From Actinoallomurus bryophytorum (GTDB lineage: Bacteria; Actinomycetota; Actinomycetes; Streptosporangiales; Streptosporangiaceae), in assembly GCF_006716425.1 (NCBI RefSeq), contig NZ_VFOZ01000001.1, positions 7,583,237 to 7,647,236 of the forward strand: a DNA stretch of 64,000 nucleotides, written 5' to 3'. Each line of letters starts with the position of its first letter. Position 1 is the first letter of the stretch. Below the pieces are notes generated by a model. That model ran no database searches and had not been told where the DNA came from. It saw only the letters and a program-made list of their open reading frames with translations. Of this stretch, positions 39,903 to 55,012 are shown in pieces. Made by a program: the position numbers and the translations under genes.

Positions 39903-41189
39903 ATGGACTCCCGACGCCGAGTGCCGCGTACCGACGCCGTGCTCGCCGACCCGCGGCTCGCCGCCGCGGCGGACCGGCTGGGGCGCGGCATCGTCAAGGC
40001 GGCCGTCACCGGCGCGCAGGAGCGTGCCCGGTCGGGGGAGATCGCCGCCGAGCGGGTGGCGGACGCCGCCGTGGCGGCGCTGCCCGCGACCGCCGCGAGT
40101 CTCCGGCCGGTCGTCAACGCGACCGGAGTGCTGCTGCACACCAACCTCGGTCGTGCGCCCCTGTCGGCCGCCGCGCGGGAGGCCGTGTCGGCCGCCGCGG
40201 GATGCACGGACGTGGAGTTCGACCTGGCCACCGGGCGCCGCGACCGGCGCGGACGCGGCACGCTGGCCGCCCTCGCCGAGGCGTGCCCGGCGGCCGAGGC
40301 GGTGCACGTGGTGAACAACAACGCCGCGGCCCTGGTACTCGCCGCCACGGTCCTCGCGCAGGGCCGCGAGATCGTGATCAGCCGCGGCGAGATGGTGGAG
40401 ATCGGCGACGGTTTCCGGCTGCCGGCGCTGCTCGCCTCGACCGGTGCGCGCCTGCGCGAGGTCGGCACCACCAACCGCACCACCGCCGCCGACTACGCCG
40501 ACGCGATCGGGCCGGAGACCGGCTTCGTGCTCAAGGTGCATCCCTCCAACTTCCGCATCGAGGGGTTCACCGCCGAGGCCGCCGTACGCGACCTGACCGG
40601 CCTGGGCGTGCCGGTCGTCGCCGACATCGGTTCCGGCCTGCTCGCGCCCGAGCCGGTGCTGCCCGGCGAGCCCGACGCCGCGACCGTGCTCGCCGAGGGC
40701 GCCGACCTGGTCACCGCCAGCGGCGACAAGCTGCTGGGCGGCCCTCAGGCGGGGCTGCTGCTCGGCCGGTCCGAGCTGGTCGAACGCCTGCGCCGCCACC
40801 CGCTCGCCCGCGCGCTGCGGGTCGACAAGCTCACGCTCGCCGCGCTGGAGGCGTCCCTGCGCGGACCGGAGCCACCGACCGCCCAGGCGCTGCACGCCGG
40901 CCTCGCCTCGCTCCGCGAGCGTGCCGTGCTCCTGGCCAAGGAGCTGACCGGCTACGACGCCGTGGTGGTCGACTCCGTCGCCCGGGTCGGCGGCGGCGGA
41001 GCACCGGGGGTCGAGCTGCCCAGCGTGGCCGTCGGCCTGCCGGAGACCTGTGCCGTGCCCCTGCGCCGCGCCGGCATCGTGGGCCGCGTCGAGTCCGGCC
41101 GCCTGCTCCTGGACCTGCGCGGGATCCCGGCGGATCTCGGTGTGACGGTGCTCGCCGCGCGGATACGGGAATCCCTCCAGTGCATGTGA
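39903..41189 (+). CDS. selA: L-seryl-tRNA(Sec) selenium transferase SelA
   Basis: 428 residues. SelA converts Ser-tRNA(Sec) to Sec-tRNA(Sec) using selenophosphate and PLP. VVNATGVLLHTNLGRAPLS near 70-88 is the family's signature, VNNNAAALVLAA and SRGEMVEIGDGFRLP follow, and the PLP Lys is Lys276 in TASGDKLLGGPQAG. GTTNRTTAADYADAI is the usual substrate loop. ATG 39903 fits. The gene overlaps selB by 10 bases, so the two are co-translated. A MITE-like element lies directly upstream and may affect its promoter. Confidence 0.97.
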   Translation: MDSRRRVPRTDAVLADPRLAAAADRLGRGIVKAAVTGAQERARSGEIAAERVADAAVAALPATAASLRPVVNATGVLLHTNLGRAPLSAAAREAVSAAAGCTDVEFDLATGRRDRRGRGTLAALAEACPAAEAVHVVNNNAAALVLAATVLAQGREIVISRGEMVEIGDGFRLPALLASTGARLREVGTTNRTTAADYADAIGPETGFVLKVHPSNFRIEGFTAEAAVRDLTGLGVPVVADIGSGLLAPEPVLPGEPDAATVLAEGADLVTASGDKLLGGPQAGLLLGRSELVERLRRHPLARALRVDKLTLAALEASLRGPEPPTAQALHAGLASLRERAVLLAKELTGYDAVVVDSVARVGGGGAPGVELPSVAVGLPETCAVPLRRAGIVGRVESGRLLLDLRGIPADLGVTVLAARIRESLQCM

Positions 41190-42928
41190 TCGCCACCGCG
41201 GGCCACGTCGACCACGGAAAGTCGACGCTCGTCCGCGCGCTCACCGGCATGGAGCCGGACCGCTGGGCCGAGGAGCGGCGGCGGGGCATGACCATCGACC
41301 TGGGCTTCGCCTGGATGACGCTGGACTCGGGGGAGCGGCTCGCGTTCGTGGACGTCCCCGGGCACGAACGCTTCGTGACCAACATGCTCGCCGGCGTCGG
41401 CCCGGTGCCCGCGGTCATGATCGTCGTGGCGGCGGACGAGGGCTGGATGCCGCAGTCCGCCGAGCACCTCGCCGCCGTCGACGCGCTCCGGGTGCGCCAC
41501 GGCCTGCTCGTCGTCACGCGTTCGGACCGCGCCGACCCTGCCGCCGCGCTGGCCCAGGCGCGAGCGGAGATCGCCCGGACCACCCTCGGCGACGTCCACG
41601 CGATCGCGGTCAGCGGCGCGACCGGCCAGGGGCTGCCGGAGCTGCGGACCGCCCTCGGCGACCTGGCCGCCCGCCTGCCGGCGCCGGACCCTCGCGCGCC
41701 GGTGCGGATCTGGATCGACCGGGCGTTCACGATCAAGGGCAGCGGCACGGTCGTCACCGGCACGCTGCCCGCCGGCAGCCTGCGCTCCGGGGGTGAGCTG
41801 CTCCTGGAGGGCAGGCCGGTGCGCGTACGTTCCCTGCAGACGCTGAAGGAGACCACCCGTGAGGTGACCGGCGTCGCCCGGGTCGCGATCAACCTGCGCG
41901 GCGTCGAACGCGACGACGTCTCCCGTGGCATGGCCCTCACCGGCAGCGAATGGACCGTCACCGATGTCATCGACGTACGCGTCGAGGGCGTGGACCGGCT
42001 GCCCCGCGAGCCGGTCCTGCACATCGGGTCCGCCGCCGTGCCGGTACGCCTGCGCCCGCTCGGCGAGGACGCGGCACGCCTCACGCTCGCCCGTCCGCTG
42101 CCGCTGCACATCGGCGACCGGCTGCTGCTGCGCGACCCCGGTGCCCGCCGGGTCGCCGGCGCCGACGTGCTCGACGTGCGCCCGCCGGCCCTGCGGCGGC
42201 GCGGCGCGGCCGCCGCCCGAGCGGACGAGCTCGCCGCCGGCGTCCCGTCCGCCGCCGAGCTGGTCCGGCGGCACGGCCTGATCCGCCGGCCCGACCTCGT
42301 CGCGATGGGCGTCGCCCCGGAGGGCGAGCCGGTGGCGGCCGACTGGCTCGCCGACCCGGCGCACTGGGAGTCCCTGCGCCGCCGGCTGGCCGAGGAGGTC
42401 GCCCGGCACGCCGCCGCCGACCCGCTCGATCCCGGCCTGCCGGTCGAGGCCGCCCGGTCCCTGCTGGACCTGCCCGACCGGCGCCTGGTCGACGCGCTGG
42501 CACGGCCACCGCTGCGGCTCGAGTCCGGCCGGGTGCACGCGTCCGCCGCCGCCGGCCTGCCGCCCGCGATCGCCGAGGCGCTACGGCTGCTCCGCGCCGA
42601 CCTGGACCGGAGCCCGTTCCGTGCGCCGGAGTCCGGCCGGCTCGCCGAGCTGGGACTCACCGGGCGTGCGCTGGGCGCGGCCGTACGCGCCGGCGCGCTG
42701 CTCAGGGTGGCCGAGGGGATCGTGCTGCTCCCCGGCGCCGACGCCGAGGCGGCACGTGTCCTCGCCTCGGTGCCGCAGCCGTTCACCGTCAGCGAGGCAC
42801 GCCGGGCACTCGACACCAGCCGCCGCGTCGCCGTCCCGCTGCTCGAACATCTCGATCGCCAGGGGCTCACGACCCGGGTGGACGATGCCCGCCGTACCCT
42901 CGCCAGGGGCGGCGCGGACGACCGCTGA
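41180..42928 (+). CDS. selB: Selenocysteine-specific elongation factor SelB
   Basis: 582 residues from GTG 41180, inside the selA 3' end; GTG 41186 is an alternative but loses the MHV start typical of SelB. G motifs are AGHVDHGKSTLV (8-15), DVPGHERFVTNM (G3) and VVTRSDRADP (G4, TRSD in place of NKxD). EF-Tu-like domains 2 and 3 follow (RAFTIKGSGTVVTGTLPAGS). The C-terminal third carries winged-helix repeats that bind SECIS RNA (PFRAPESGRLAELGLTGRAL, PFTVSEARRALDTSRRVAVP). It delivers Sec-tRNA to the UGA of the formate dehydrogenase mRNA. Confidence 0.97.
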   Translation: MHVIATAGHVDHGKSTLVRALTGMEPDRWAEERRRGMTIDLGFAWMTLDSGERLAFVDVPGHERFVTNMLAGVGPVPAVMIVVAADEGWMPQSAEHLAAVDALRVRHGLLVVTRSDRADPAAALAQARAEIARTTLGDVHAIAVSGATGQGLPELRTALGDLAARLPAPDPRAPVRIWIDRAFTIKGSGTVVTGTLPAGSLRSGGELLLEGRPVRVRSLQTLKETTREVTGVARVAINLRGVERDDVSRGMALTGSEWTVTDVIDVRVEGVDRLPREPVLHIGSAAVPVRLRPLGEDAARLTLARPLPLHIGDRLLLRDPGARRVAGADVLDVRPPALRRRGAAAARADELAAGVPSAAELVRRHGLIRRPDLVAMGVAPEGEPVAADWLADPAHWESLRRRLAEEVARHAAADPLDPGLPVEAARSLLDLPDRRLVDALARPPLRLESGRVHASAAAGLPPAIAEALRLLRADLDRSPFRAPESGRLAELGLTGRALGAAVRAGALLRVAEGIVLLPGADAEAARVLASVPQPFTVSEARRALDTSRRVAVPLLEHLDRQGLTTRVDDARRTLARGGADDR

Positions 42929-49845: not shown

Positions 49846-50080
49846 CGAGTGGATACAGGCGACCTGTGAGGAGCTCGGCCTCGAGCCCGGCGACATGCAC
49901 CGCGATCTGATCCTCGACGTGGCACGCGACGTCGCGCACGGAGTGGCGAGGCCGGCCGCACCCCTGACCGCCTACCTCATGGGCCTGGCCGTCGGGCGGG
50001 GCACGCCCGTACGCGACGCCGCCGCCCGGATCACCGAGATGGCCGAGGGGTGGAACGACCGGCCTCCGAAGGCTGAGTAA
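49838..50080 (+). CDS. DUF6457 family protein
   Basis: 80 residues from GTG 49838, overlapping mobA by 8 bases. LDEWIQATCEELGLEPGDMH, DLILDVARDVAHGVARPAAP and LTAYLMGLAVGRG match the DUF6457 helical domain, which in other actinomycetes is fused to the C-terminus of MobA. Its separate frame here suggests the two halves work together in cofactor maturation. Function unproven. Confidence 0.75.
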   Translation: MLDEWIQATCEELGLEPGDMHRDLILDVARDVAHGVARPAAPLTAYLMGLAVGRGTPVRDAAARITEMAEGWNDRPPKAE

Positions 50081-50164
50081 ATCCCGGCCGGTCATCATGT
50101 GTAGTCGTCCGATGACGTGGTAGGTAGGGCCAGTCGAGACACACCAACGATCACGGAGGCTGGC

Positions 50165-50713
50165 ATGGCCGATTTCCTGACCGATATCAAGACGCTGAGG
50201 GAGCGTGCGCGGGCGGAGATCGACAAGGGGCCGGTCACCGAGGCGTACGGCGCCGACCTGAAACGCGTCATCGAGGTGTGCAACGAGGCGCTCGCCACCG
50301 AGATCGTCTGTGTGCTGCGGTACAAGCGGCACTACTACACGGCGACCGGCATCCATTCAGAGTCGGTGGCGGCCGAGTTCCTCGAACACGCCGCCGACGA
50401 GCAGCGCCACGCCGACCTGCTGGCCGAGCGCATCGCCCAGCTGGGCGGTTCCCCCGACTTCGACCCGGCACGGCTGTCGAGCCGGTCCCACACCGAGTAC
50501 AACGCCAGCTCGGACCTGGTCGAGATGATCAGGGAGGACCTGGTCGCCGAGCGCATCGCGATCGCCTCCTACACCGAGATCGCCCAGTGGATCGGCGACG
50601 GTGACCCCACGACGCGGCGGCTCTTCGAAGAACTCCTCGCCGACGAGGAGGAGCACGCCGACGACCTCAAGTCCCTGCTCGAACGCCTGCCGGCGGATCT
50701 GGCGCGTTCCTGA
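50165..50713 (+). CDS. Bacterioferritin-like / Dps-like ferritin
   Basis: 182 residues from ATG 50165. A four-helix ferritin fold with metal ligands: EVCNEALATEIVCVLRYKRH (Glu of helix A), LEHAADEQRHADLLAERIAQ (ExxH, helix B), MIREDLVAERIAIASYTEIA (Glu, helix C) and LLADEEEHADDLKSLLERL (ExxH, helix D). Iron storage or protection against peroxide is likely. No heme-ligand Met can be placed. Single gene, 69 bases between preceding gene and its probable promoter region. Confidence 0.88.
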   Translation: MADFLTDIKTLRERARAEIDKGPVTEAYGADLKRVIEVCNEALATEIVCVLRYKRHYYTATGIHSESVAAEFLEHAADEQRHADLLAERIAQLGGSPDFDPARLSSRSHTEYNASSDLVEMIREDLVAERIAIASYTEIAQWIGDGDPTTRRLFEELLADEEEHADDLKSLLERLPADLARS

Positions 50714-50771
50714 TCCTTCCGCCCGGGCCGCCGTCCTCCTTGAGGGCGGCGGTTTCTTTTCCGGGGTCTGG

Positions 50772-53051
50772 TCAGCGGCGGCCGACCAGGAGGACGACCG
50801 CGAGTGTGGCGGCGAGCGGCAGCGCCGGCGCGGCCGGCCGGGCCCAGGTGAGCAGCACCGCGTCCAGCCCGGCCCCGGCGAGCGCGGCCGCCAGCACGGC
50901 GAAGCGGCGGCGCATGGTCGAGGGCACGCCACTGGTGGCGAGTTCCGTGGTCAGGGCCGTGAGCGTGCCGGTGAGGTAGGTGGTGGCGGCCCCGGCGAGG
51001 GGGAGCGTGTTCACCCCGGCGCTCTGCACTCCCATGGCGAACGCGGACGGGACGAGCAGGAGGATCTGGGCCGTCCCGTCCGGGTGTCCACCGGTACCGA
51101 GCCACCCGACGAGCACGAGCGCCTGCGCGAACGGCACGAGCACGAGCACCCGGTGTACGCGGCCGGTCCACTGTTCGCCGTCGCTCCCGCTCTCGCGCGG
51201 AGCCATGGGGCCGCGCCATCCGAAGCGACCGCCCGTCCCACGCCGCCCGCGCGCAGGTGAGAGCCGGTTCTCGGCGTGGCCACGGCGCGCTCGGGCGAGA
51301 TGTGCCCACCGGAGAAGCCCACGTTGCGTGCCCACGGGACGGAGGGACCGCCCACGCCGACGTGTGCCGACCGGGCGGATGGGCAGTGAGCGCCGACGTG
51401 TGCCGACCGGGCGGATGGGCAGTGAGCGCCGACGTGTGCCGACCGGGCGGATGGGCAGTGGGCGCCGACGTGTGCCGACCGGGCGGATGGGCCGTGGGCC
51501 GCGACGCGTGTCCACCGGACGGATGGGCCACGGGCGGCCGGGCAGTCCACGGCGCGTTCGTGCGGCCCGCGCCCACCGCGATTGGTGCCGTGCCCGCGCG
51601 GGCCGGCGGAGACGAGGCAGGCCCCGGCGCGTAGGGGCGGCGCGTGTCCACCCGCGGGATCCACGCCGTGCCCGCGCGGTCCGCCCAGACCACGCACGGC
51701 GGGGCATCTTGCGGCGTGAGGGGGCGGCCTGTGAGTCCCGGCGCAGACTGGTGGGCGGGCCGGGCCTGGCGCGGCGGGGCAGTCCGCGGCGTGCGGGCCC
51801 GGGGCGGCCGGCATGCCTGCGGCGTGCGGGTGCGGGGCGTCCTCGCCGGGGGAGTCGGCGGCGCAGGCCGGCCGAACCGGGCTGCAGGCTACGGCGCGAG
51901 TGTGCAGGACGACCGAGGTGTCTGCGGCGTGCGGTGGCCTGTGCTCCCCGGCGCAGACCGGTAGGCGGGCCGGGGCTGGTGCGGCGGGGCAGTCCGCGGC
52001 GCACGGGGCCGGGGCGACCGGGGTACCTGCGGCGTGCGGGTGCGGGGCGTGCTCGCCGGGGGAGTCGGCGGCGCAGACCGGTGGGCGGGCCGGGCCGCCG
52101 GGTGCGGGCCCGTGCGGGTGCAGGACGGCCGAGGTACTTGCGGCGTGCGGAGGTGGGGTGTGGTTTCTGGGGGATGCGGCGCTGGCGTCGGCCGGCGCGC
52201 GGGCCGGGCAGTCCGCCGCGCGCCGGTCCGAGGCGGCCGGGATATCTGCGGCGTGCGGAGGCGGGGTCTGCTCGCCGCGGGGTACGGCGCCCGCGCAGGC
52301 CGTCGCGCGGTCCGCGGCGCGTGGGTTCGGGACGACCGGGATATCCGTCGCGTGCGGGGACCGGGCGTGGTCGCTGGGAGGTGCGGCGGCGCAGGCCGCC
52401 TGGCAGGCCGCGCCGGGTACGGCGTGCGGGTCCAGGGCCATCGGGATATCTGCGGCCTGCGGTGGGTTGCGCGTGCCGGAGGAGGCGCCACCGGCGCATG
52501 CCGCCGCGCAGGCCAAGCCGCGTGTGGTGCGTGGCTCCAGGGCGGCCGGGATATCTGCGGCCTGCGGTGGGTTGCGCTCGCCGGAGGAGGCGCCACCGAC
52601 GCATGCCAACGCGCAGGCCAAGCCGCGTGTGGTGCGTGGCTCCAGGGCGGCCGAGGTACCGGCGGCGTGGGGAGCTGGGAGGTGTCCGCCGGAACGGGCC
52701 GGGAGCCGTACTCCCGGGAGGCCCGCCCCCGCGCCCGGCCGGGGAATGCCCGGCGGCGGTGTGGCGGAACCAGGTGGTGGCACCTAACACGCCCGCGACA
52801 TACGCCGCGATGGCGAAGGCGGCCGAGAGCGCCGGATCGGGCCGGGCGTGAACGACGGCGACGCCGAGCAGGACGAGGTTCCCCGTCATCACACTCGCGA
52901 AGACCGCGCCGAGCCCGACGAAACTGAAGGCGTCCACTGCCCCCGAACCCAGCGCCAGCAGAATGACGGCGGCGGTGAGCCTCCCCGCCCGCGGCACCTG
53001 CGGTGGGGCCGCGGTGCCGCCCCCCGACACCTGCGCTTGCCGCTCGGCCAT
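50772..53051 (-). CDS. DUF1275 (YoaK-like) membrane protein split by a large Arg/Pro-rich repeat insert
   Basis: 759 residues from ATG 53051 (MAERQAQVSGGG). DUF1275 proteins are normally about 220 residues with six helices. Here residues 1-98 hold the N-terminal half (GSGAVDAFSFVGLGAVFASV, MTGNLVLLGVAVVHA). Residues 628-759 hold the C-terminal half (SAFAMGVQSAGVNTLPLAGA, TYLTGTLTALTTELA). Between them, about residues 100-625 are very basic repeats: units of about 35 residues built around RRYPGRP, then five 12-residue units (LPIRPVGTRRRS). All repeat periods are multiples of three bases, so the frame is kept. Function of the core family is uncertain; the insert is unexplained. Confidence 0.7.
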   Translation of the reverse strand: MAERQAQVSGGGTAAPPQVPRAGRLTAAVILLALGSGAVDAFSFVGLGAVFASVMTGNLVLLGVAVVHARPDPALSAAFAIAAYVAGVLGATTWFRHTAAGHSPAGRGGGPPGSTAPGPFRRTPPSSPRRRYLGRPGATHHTRLGLRVGMRRWRLLRRAQPTAGRRYPGRPGATHHTRLGLRGGMRRWRLLRHAQPTAGRRYPDGPGPARRTRRGLPGGLRRRTSQRPRPVPARDGYPGRPEPTRRGPRDGLRGRRTPRRADPASARRRYPGRLGPARGGLPGPRAGRRQRRIPQKPHPTSARRKYLGRPAPARARTRRPGPPTGLRRRLPRRARPAPARRRYPGRPGPVRRGLPRRTSPGPPTGLRRGAQATARRRHLGRPAHSRRSLQPGSAGLRRRLPRRGRPAPARRRHAGRPGPARRGLPRRARPGPPTSLRRDSQAAPSRRKMPRRAWSGRTARARRGSRGWTRAAPTRRGLPRLRRPARARHQSRWARAARTRRGLPGRPWPIRPVDTRRGPRPIRPVGTRRRPLPIRPVGTRRRSLPIRPVGTRRRSLPIRPVGTRRRGRSLRPVGTQRGLLRWAHLARARRGHAENRLSPARGRRGTGGRFGWRGPMAPRESGSDGEQWTGRVHRVLVLVPFAQALVLVGWLGTGGHPDGTAQILLLVPSAFAMGVQSAGVNTLPLAGAATTYLTGTLTALTTELATSGVPSTMRRRFAVLAAALAGAGLDAVLLTWARPAAPALPLAATLAVVLLVGRR
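51361..51540. repeat. 36-bp tandem repeats within the DUF1275 gene
   Basis: CGTGTGCC starts units at 51361, 51397, 51433 and 51469, with a degenerate fifth at 51505. The period is exactly 36 bases (12 codons, LPIRPVGTRRRS on the minus strand). Confidence 0.92.
51812..52759. repeat. 99-111-bp degenerate tandem repeats within the DUF1275 gene
   Basis: The anchor (G-A/G-T-A-T-C-TGCGGCGTGCGG and variants) recurs at 51812, 51917, 52022, 52133, 52241, 52340, 52445, 52550 and 52655. Steps are 105, 105, 111, 108, 99, 105, 105 and 105 bases, all divisible by three. The last complete copies (52445 and 52550) are nearly identical, so expansion is recent. Confidence 0.92.
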
Positions 53052-53842
53052 GCCGGCGCCCCCCGACACCTGTACTCGCCGTCGGCCGCTGCGACGCTTC
53101 CGAAGCCCCGGGTCCCGCCATGCCCGCGTCCCCGAACGGCCGCACTCCCCGCCGACCCACGGCGGCGCCCCCTGGACAGCCGTGACCACGGTCGGCCATG
53201 AACGCCGTCCCCTGCCACCTACGACGGCCTTTCCCGTGGGCAATATCCCCGCCCCGTCCCCGAACGACACACAGCCCGCCGACAGACCCGAAGGCCGGCA
53301 GACGCGGATGAGGACGGAACAGCCGCCCGACCACCTGGCCATCGCCGGGGCGTAAGGACCGGGGTGGGGTGGTGGCGGGTGTGTGGTCGATTGGTCGTTG
53401 GCGGGGTGGGGTGGTGGCCGGTGCGCGTTCACCTGGCCGCCATCACGACCGCGTGGTCGTGCTGCTGGGCCAGTCGGCGCTCGGCTTGGCCGTCGGCCTC
53501 CGGGTGCCGCCCGTCGGGCGGAGTTCTGCCAGGGCCTGATCGAGCAGGCCGCGCCGTTCCCGCCGGAGCCCCGCACCGTCGACCGGCCGGAGGCGACCAG
53601 CCGTCCGAACACGCGGGCGTCCTGGTAAATCGACCGTTACATCGCCCTGCTCGCCTCGACGCCCTGTCCATCTCGGGTGGCCGGCCGGCGCTGGCCGATG
53701 GCGGGCGTCCATGCGAGTCGTCCGGGCGGTGGGCCCGTGATGCTCGGCCGCCCTGTCCGTCCGGTGCGACGTCAGGCTCTTCGCCGATCAGGACCCGGCC
53801 TGTACGCGACTACCCGTCCCGGCGGGTATCGGGGTGTGTGGC
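53052..53842. other. Low-information region upstream of the DUF1275 gene
   Basis: The DUF1275 reading frame stays open upstream to 53612, but nothing before 53051 resembles a protein family. Around 53440-53620 the minus strand has pieces such as QAERRLAQQHDHAVVMAAR that look like a decayed gene end, in a frame that is soon lost. No tRNA, IS or clear promoter seen. Confidence 0.35.
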
Positions 53843-54052
53843 TTACGTGGTCTCTTCCTCGACCGGGACGGTTTCGCGGTGGAAGCCTCTACGGGACAGG
53901 AAGTCGGTCAGGGACTCCCGGTGCTCGTCGCAGGCCAGCCAGACCTTGCGCCGGTCAGGGTCGTGGATTTTCGGGTTGTTCCAGCGCAGGGCCCAGCGGG
54001 CGTCGGCTCGGCAGTCCTTGGCCGAACACTGGAGCGGCTCATCGGTGGTCAC
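53843..54052 (-). CDS. Small conserved actinobacterial zinc-ribbon-like protein
   Basis: 69 residues from GTG 54052. CSAKDCRADARWALRWNNPK, RRKVWLACDEHRESLTDFLS and RRGFHRE match a short family common in actinomycetes with four Cys/His ligands (CxxxxC, CxxH), probably binding zinc. It is often found near SURF1-like or ABC transporter genes. Function unknown. Clear coding character contrasts with the poor sequence around it. Confidence 0.75.
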   Translation of the reverse strand: MTTDEPLQCSAKDCRADARWALRWNNPKIHDPDRRKVWLACDEHRESLTDFLSRRGFHRETVPVEEETT

Positions 54053-54948
54053 GGCACCAGTCTGTCCGATCGCCGCACATGTACGGACCGGGCCGTCGCC
54101 GCGCACAACGCCCTCCCGGCCCGCTGGTACGCCGAGCACACCGCACCCCGGAGCGCGAGACCCACGAGCGCCAACGGCAGGACGAGTGAGCGCGGGCGAG
54201 GAAACGCCGGCGGGTCACGGCGGCCTCAGGCGGGGCTGCCAGAGTGTGCCAAATTCGGTGGGCAAGTGCTCTCGACCCATGCAGGGGTGGCAACACGCCA
54301 CGGCTGGTCGACGCCCGGAGGTCCGTCCGAAGGTGACGGTCTGCGGGAGGTACGAGAGGCTGCCGTTGATAAGCCGTGACCCGTGATATACGAATCGACG
54401 CACGCGGGGAATCCGCCGGCACATTAGCGGCACCGGATCCGCACCCCAACTGTCCGGATGTGGCCGCCCTCCCCAAGATCGTGCAGGTCGGGACATACGC
54501 ACCAAGCAGGCCGCCAAGACGCTGAAACCGGAAATACCCCTACAGCCGCGCACGAACGACACCCCGGTCGACCCGTCTTGACAGCCTTGACAAACCCCTG
54601 GCTCCACCGCCAGGCCGACGGCGTAAGCCGAGAAACAGACCCGGCGACCCACCACGCCCGGCCGAGCAGGCAGCCACCCGCGGAGACCGTACCGCAGCCA
54701 ACGAAACCCCTGACCAGGGCCAACACCGGCGAAAATCACGATGACGCCCAAGGACCAAGGTGCGAGACCCCGCGCCCGCAAGCCACCGCCGCGTACTCGA
54801 AGCGCCGGACCCCCGAAACCCCCGCAAAGAACCGACGCACGGCACCCGACCTACTTTCGGCGTGGGCTGAAATGTGCGCACACCGCCGGATGGCGCAGGA
54901 AACATAGCCAGGTGGCGCTCCATATCAACCTAAGGATGGATCCCCCAC
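54053..54948. other. About 0.9 kb without a convincing gene
   Basis: Frames on both strands are open but show no domain, no good ribosome site and no normal codon pattern. The stretch 54370-54900 is richer in A and C than neighbours, as often seen in decayed mobile or plasmid-derived DNA. I could not identify an integrase, attachment site or tRNA. Confidence 0.35.
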
Positions 54949-54962
54949 GTCGTCCGGACGAC
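54949..54962. promoter_or_regulatory. Palindromic operator upstream of the ABC-2 exporter
   Basis: GTCGTCCGGACGAC is a perfect 14-bp palindrome 50 bases before the ATPase start. It has the form of a response-regulator or TetR-type site. No cognate regulator is adjacent. Confidence 0.5.
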
Positions 54963-55012
54963 TAGCGTGATCGTCCTCACGCACCGCCATCAAACGAACT
55001 CAGGACCTGCGA

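Follow-up and report, generated by a model that had tools for sequence, protein, structure and literature searches.

Why does a small, conserved membrane domain carry between two of its helices an insert more than twice its own length, and is the sequence of that insert selected or only its reading frame? The question arises from a gene for a DUF1275 protein in the stretch of Actinoallomurus bryophytorum DNA analyzed here, 64,000 nucleotides long and called the window below. The gene is read on the minus strand from an ATG at 53051, chosen by alignment with relatives, to a stop at 50772, giving 759 codons (Table 1). A Pfam search of the protein returned two DUF1275 (PF06912) pieces above the cut-off, covering profile positions 2–70 and 73–192 with no stop in between (score 84 bits; cut-off 25.4), and no domain besides DUF1275; the motifs MTGN and TYLTGT are both present. 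The usual DUF1275 domain is uninterrupted and compact at ~200 residues, which is the habit of the family and not a demand of the Pfam model, whereas here ~531 residues lie between profile positions 70 and 73. The original prediction had placed the halves 525 residues apart: the large split is real, and its length is 531 residues by the boundaries of the window protein or 535 by those of the orthologue alignment. The insert was also said to be rich in Arg and Pro, and its 531 residues indeed include 157 Arg (30%), 82 Pro (15%), and 74 Gly (14%).

Table 1. Parts of the DUF1275 gene in window coordinates
Feature	Positions	Strand	Evidence
Entire gene (759-aa DUF1275 protein, helix 3–4 loop enlarged)	50772..53051	-	Open ORF, Pfam match, start by relatives
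DUF1275 first half, helices 1–3, profile 2–70	52758..53051	-	Pfam, AlphaFold model, dN/dS
Insert rich in Arg/Pro/Gly, 531 aa, predicted disordered	51165..52757	-	Frame reading, orthologue alignment, model
Nine diverged units of 99–111 bases, basic length 105	51720..52667	-	Unit alignment
75-base repeat, 1.9 copies	51541..51683	-	Tandem-repeat search
36-base array, 4.8 copies, 94% matches	51355..51528	-	Tandem-repeat search
DUF1275 second half, helices 4–8, profile 73–192	50775..51164	-	Pfam, AlphaFold model, dN/dS

The AlphaFold model of the full protein has eight helices, of which three precede and five follow the insert, in agreement with the predicted placement between helices 3 and 4, and nearly all of the insert falls below a pLDDT of 50. 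An insert-free relative was likewise modeled with eight helices at a mean pLDDT of 86.6. Fold searches with the full-length model gave a best E value of 2.7 at low confidence. With the insert-free core, the best E value was 0.06, and among the best 50 of 346 matches none reached E ≤ 0.001 and TM was at most 0.49; from their titles, these 50 matches are presumably MFS transporters. A PDB profile search up to E 1 returned no solved relative. The transporter classification TCDB places DUF1275 (9.B.143) with the MFS, according to PMC7778945, and PMC12316277 gives it six, sometimes seven, segments and describes its function as unidentified.

The side of the membrane on which the enlarged loop lies can be approached from charged residues. 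In a set of 38 relatives that excludes L072, the helix 3–4 and helix 6–7 loops carry 2.50 and 2.54 Lys and Arg, respectively, per sequence with letters in the loop, and all other loops at most 1.17. The helix 3–4 loop is the longest, with 95 Lys and Arg vs. 64 Asp and Glu; its net charge of about +0.8 per sequence is no higher than the +0.9 or so of the loop between helices 5 and 6, and net charge does not single it out. By the positive-inside rule, both loops rich in Lys and Arg would be cytoplasmic. The Lys and Arg pattern thus suggests a cytoplasmic helix 3–4 loop, and having both rich loops on that side is consistent provided that one of the short helices does not span the membrane, the likeliest candidate being the polar 15-residue helix 6. 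Both of these loops are enlarged in one orthologue of the genus (L034, below) and, in another genus, in a pair of sister species. The earlier proposal that the insert binds nucleic acid, lipid heads, or wall polymers found no support here, and wall polymers would be unlikely partners if the loop is cytoplasmic.

Comparison within the genus shows enlarged loops at one place but of unrelated sequence. A DUF1275 match of some kind occurs in seven of eight Actinoallomurus genomes compared, a set that includes an Actinoallomurus MAG, and six of the eight have a syntenic orthologue with the same neighbors, a 98-residue gene and a DUF6457 gene. Four of these six orthologues have long Arg-rich linkers at the same place, of 535 (window), 96, 169, and 228 aa; the linker net charges of the four carriers are +150, +17, +48, and +42. 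The other two are insert-free with a linker of 13 aa. We rejected a common ancestral insert sequence, as the best local DNA match in each of the six carrier pairs was equaled by 28 to 78 of 100 dinucleotide shuffles. A tree built from the halves puts both insert-free orthologues together (95/96) and gives the carriers no supported order, so that the first expansion may have happened once or more than once. A ferritin-like gene, at 50117–50713 in the window, adjoins the DUF1275 gene in all four carriers, and the surrounding DNA retrieved for both insert-free orthologues showed no such gene; this neighbor common to the carriers probably reflects shared ancestry.

Some further variation was seen in the same genus. 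The orthologue of A. iriomotensis (NBRC 103681; L034) has a second Arg-rich in-frame insert of ~30 residues in the loop before MRRR, the other loop rich in Lys and Arg. In one of the insert-free orthologues, the 5' end contains a 54-base repeat (L037:1926-2066); its translation, if it occurs, would extend the N terminus by an Arg-rich segment. Four Actinoallomurus genomes (L003, L004, L005, and L006) carry an unsplit DUF1275 gene that covers the whole profile 1–191 and is distinct from the orthologue studied here.

The repeats of the insert preserve the frame. Its nine diverged units measure 105, 105, 102, 99, 108, 111, 105, 105, and 108 bases as we cut them, lengths that are multiples of three by construction because the cuts were made at codon borders. 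The gaps in the DNA alignment of the nine units, which are not set by construction, are all multiples of three as well, and so are all 12 of the strongest self-match offsets of the insert, each scoring at least 25.5 against a maximum of 17.5 in 20 shuffles. The original prediction had listed unit lengths close to ours, all divisible by three, and it is the gaps and offsets, not the unit lengths, that agree with it independently; the five 36-base units it described are an array of 4.8 copies. The window gene thus contains an intragenic tandem repeat with periods in multiples of three. Among the other linkers, the single self-match offset above shuffles in L035 (84) and both of those in L036 (165 and 168) are multiples of three, and L034 has no offset above the shuffled controls. 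Openness by itself is weak evidence: the other two sense frames of the window insert contain zero and one stop, and of 1,000 dinucleotide shuffles the coding frame stayed open in 45 for the window insert, 390 for L034, 496 for L035, and 225 for L036.

Selection on the halves differs from that on the insert. Computed by the Nei–Gojobori method between the window gene and the three other carriers, dN/dS was 0.13–0.17 for the first half and 0.29–0.32 for the second; both halves together ranged from 0.13 to 0.34 over the 6 carrier pairs and from 0.13 to 0.43 over all 15 orthologue pairs. Compared with dN among the other carriers, that of the window gene is slightly higher in the C-terminal half and lower in the N-terminal half. 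By these ratios, the flanking halves are under purifying selection. The nine repeat units show 0.283, 0.273, and 0.335 differences per codon at positions 1, 2, and 3, and their dN/dS is 0.86 (bootstrap 0.56–1.33) in the coding frame against 1.20 and 1.03 in the other two. Five duplicate pairs chosen from the strongest self-matches gave 0.52, 0.53, 0.80, 0.53, and 1.08. A weak constraint on the insert is possible from these values, far below that on the flanks. The GC content at codon positions 1 to 3 is 0.82/0.81/0.75 in the insert and 0.79/0.58/0.94 in the C-terminal half, and the insert is thus without the high third-position GC of its flanks; its Arg codon use is near that of reference ORFs of the window, its Pro codon use is different, and its Gly codons include more GGA.

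The earlier argument had been that random expansion of DNA would not keep multiples of three and that selection at the protein level was therefore likely. For the frame this holds, given the in-frame linkers in four species, the offsets, and the conserved halves; for the amino acids of the insert it does not, as the dN/dS interval includes 1 and no shared sequence is detectable between the linkers of different species. The bias against other lengths requires constraint only on the downstream half, and the frame would be kept because the second half is needed. The frame is thus selected, and the insert sequence is mostly free of visible selection.

Tandem arrays are common in the host genome. 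A sample of 464 kb, consisting of 400 kb of sampled genome and the window, contains 98 nonoverlapping arrays, 14 of them at least 200 bp long and two of these 14 within the DUF1275 gene. Periods are multiples of three in 77 of the 98 arrays and in 10 of the 14 long ones, and such a period is therefore usual for arrays of this genome. When seven long arrays were read in open frames, several resembled low-complexity linkers in long frames. Other large arrays in the genome include 21 copies of 18 bases encoding PVTSSV repeats in a 762-codon frame (L132:16851-17228) and 13.2 copies of 41 bases (L139:5817-6358). A mobile or dispersed repeat was rejected, as insert DNA matches elsewhere in the genome only three times, over 42–63 bases (40 of 320 first-look candidates scored).

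The DUF1275 gene is nevertheless an outlier within this repeat-prone genome. We compared 53 window ORFs, some of them spurious overlapping frames, with the matching A. iriomotensis stretch, a comparison that sees only gaps between matched pieces, and found such a gap in five. In three of the five the pieces do not share one open frame in A. iriomotensis, and in one other the gap is near equal (79 vs. 75 residues); DUF1275 is the only one of the 53 with a large in-frame difference, 522 vs. 83 residues. General repeat-proneness alone is thus insufficient. The GC content of the insert, 0.79, is also beyond the range of the 400-kb sample, in which none of 920 segments of 1.6 kb exceeds 0.77. Elsewhere in the window, the ORF at 39905–42925 has domains of SelB, the selenocysteine-specific elongation factor.

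Across the family, our search covered 297 genomes, 181 of them with a match, and loci were drawn from among the matches listed. A second search took in 40 genomes selected by visual inspection because their best scores were weak, with every one of their 47 matches listed and with G036 and G062, also weak, outside it; further long loops could have escaped the survey. Both motifs were found in one open frame at 67 of 78 loci from named genomes, the other 11 being without one motif in the form of the pattern used. The span from MTGN to TYLTGT is 116–119 residues in 61 of the 67 and 123–129 in three; the remaining spans are 163, 202, and 275, the last two from Actinoallomurus, and the window protein has 641. 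At the locus with a span of 163 (L116) the loop is longer without being rich in Arg, and G014, from another genus, has an Ala/Gly/Thr-rich stretch in the same loop, its matched pieces lying 58 residues apart. In another genus, two sister species (L151 and L152, 91% identity) carry Gly-Arg-rich repeats in the helix 3–4 loop and more repeats in the loop before helix 7, unequal between the two; in G128, of the same genus, the matches skip the first stretch. Among the 40 genomes of the second search, only a partial DUF1275 domain was found in G256, G220, G178, and G183, and neither G223 nor G139 shows a normal second half when the frame of the first part is followed onward.

In composition, each of the four linkers is least hydrophobic when read in the coding frame rather than in either of the other two sense frames; the small second insert of L034 does not follow this pattern. 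The coding frame is also the most Arg-rich sense frame in three linkers, with a near tie in the remaining one. For L034 and L036 the margins are narrow and the other sense frames nearly as Arg-rich, and each linker has some antisense frame that is equally or more Arg-rich. Three linkers contain no Cys, and L036 has a single one. As array copies repeat one unit, such counts amount to few independent observations, and the frame pattern is compatible with a demand for a hydrophilic loop and no more.

Taken together, we consider it probable that the insert arose by frame-filtered expansion of tandem repeats in a tolerant, disordered loop of a repeat-rich genome. An intact half-MFS-like DUF1275 protein would have its helix 3–4 loop repeatedly enlarged as GC-rich DNA duplicated in tandem; changes that break the frame would be lost, helices 4–8 downstream being needed; and the loop, presumably translated through all its repeats, would be disordered and almost unconstrained in sequence, perhaps with the requirement to be hydrophilic and positive to stay inside. 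Long linkers of unrelated sequence at one site in four species, next to conserved flanks, accord with tolerance rather than function. This reading is weakened by the uniqueness of DUF1275 among the 53 ORFs, by the coding frame being the most hydrophilic and having the lowest dN/dS, by the values of 0.52–1.08 for the five recent duplicate pairs, by the ordinary use of Arg codons, though not of Pro codons, and by a net charge that does not mark out the helix 3–4 loop. An alternative is a selected polycationic disordered domain, whose charge (+17 to +150) would be maintained while its sequence turns over and which would bind anionic components of the cell (nucleic acid, polyphosphate, or lipids of the inner leaflet) or serve as a tether for the transporter. 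We regard such a domain as unlikely: the linkers are net positive in all four carriers, their coding frame is the most hydrophilic sense frame in all four and the richest in Arg in three, Gly-Arg repeats occupy the same loop in the two sister species of another genus, and the gene stands apart from its neighbors, but GC-rich DNA gives Arg, Pro, Gly, and Ala in most frames, including the antisense ones, two orthologues do without an insert, the loop of G014 is rich in Ala/Gly/Thr and that of L116 is longer without Arg-richness, and the repeat units are compatible with neutrality. Doubtful, too, is its broader implication that a long polycation is selected without selection on its sequence, lineages rebuilding the loop from unrelated GC-rich repeats, which would make the loop a disordered domain defined by composition only within a transporter core.

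The protein might instead be made as separate halves, by re-initiation within the insert, or lose the insert by removal at the RNA or protein level. An ATG lies 14 codons ahead of the C-terminal half in the window gene and cleavage is compatible with the sequence, but the first half runs on without a stop in all four carriers, no Met occurs in the linkers of the remaining three (considering ATG starts only), frame keeping would be superfluous for re-initiation, Pfam shows nothing but DUF1275, and no Rfam family reached the gathering score within 50000–55000, by which an RNA element was also rejected; we hold this improbable. Decay of the gene or an assembly error is very improbable. The insert is unlike its flanks in composition and repeats are hard to assemble, but the motifs are conserved, both halves keep their low dN/dS (0.13–0.32) against the other carriers, and dN of the window gene is not clearly higher. 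Assembly error, named at the outset as what might refute the insert, is made unlikely by three other assemblies with inserts at the same place.

A membrane domain of ~200 residues has been kept under selection while one of its loops grew to more than twice the domain size, with growth in several lineages and by unrelated sequence. The loop offers a natural test of how much disordered, highly charged sequence is tolerated between the helices of a membrane protein and of whether selection can act on charge alone. A search of the literature on the DUF1275/PF06912/YoaK family, Actinoallomurus, and in-frame or intragenic repeats, carried out mostly outside subscription journals, found no such inserts. 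The window protein resembles other members of DUF1275 (PF06912; TC 9.B.143, half-size MFS-like) in that both halves score over the Pfam cut-off and MTGN and TYLTGT are kept, and it departs from them in its span between the motifs; the core model of a relative bears a weak likeness to MFS proteins, with no match at E ≤ 0.001 among the best 50. Bacterial intragenic tandem repeats, for example those of Legionella pneumophila (PMC2639597), are similar in being in-frame arrays in a coding gene that vary between lineages, whereas the array described here lies within a conserved membrane domain, between two helices, and exceeds twice the length of that domain.
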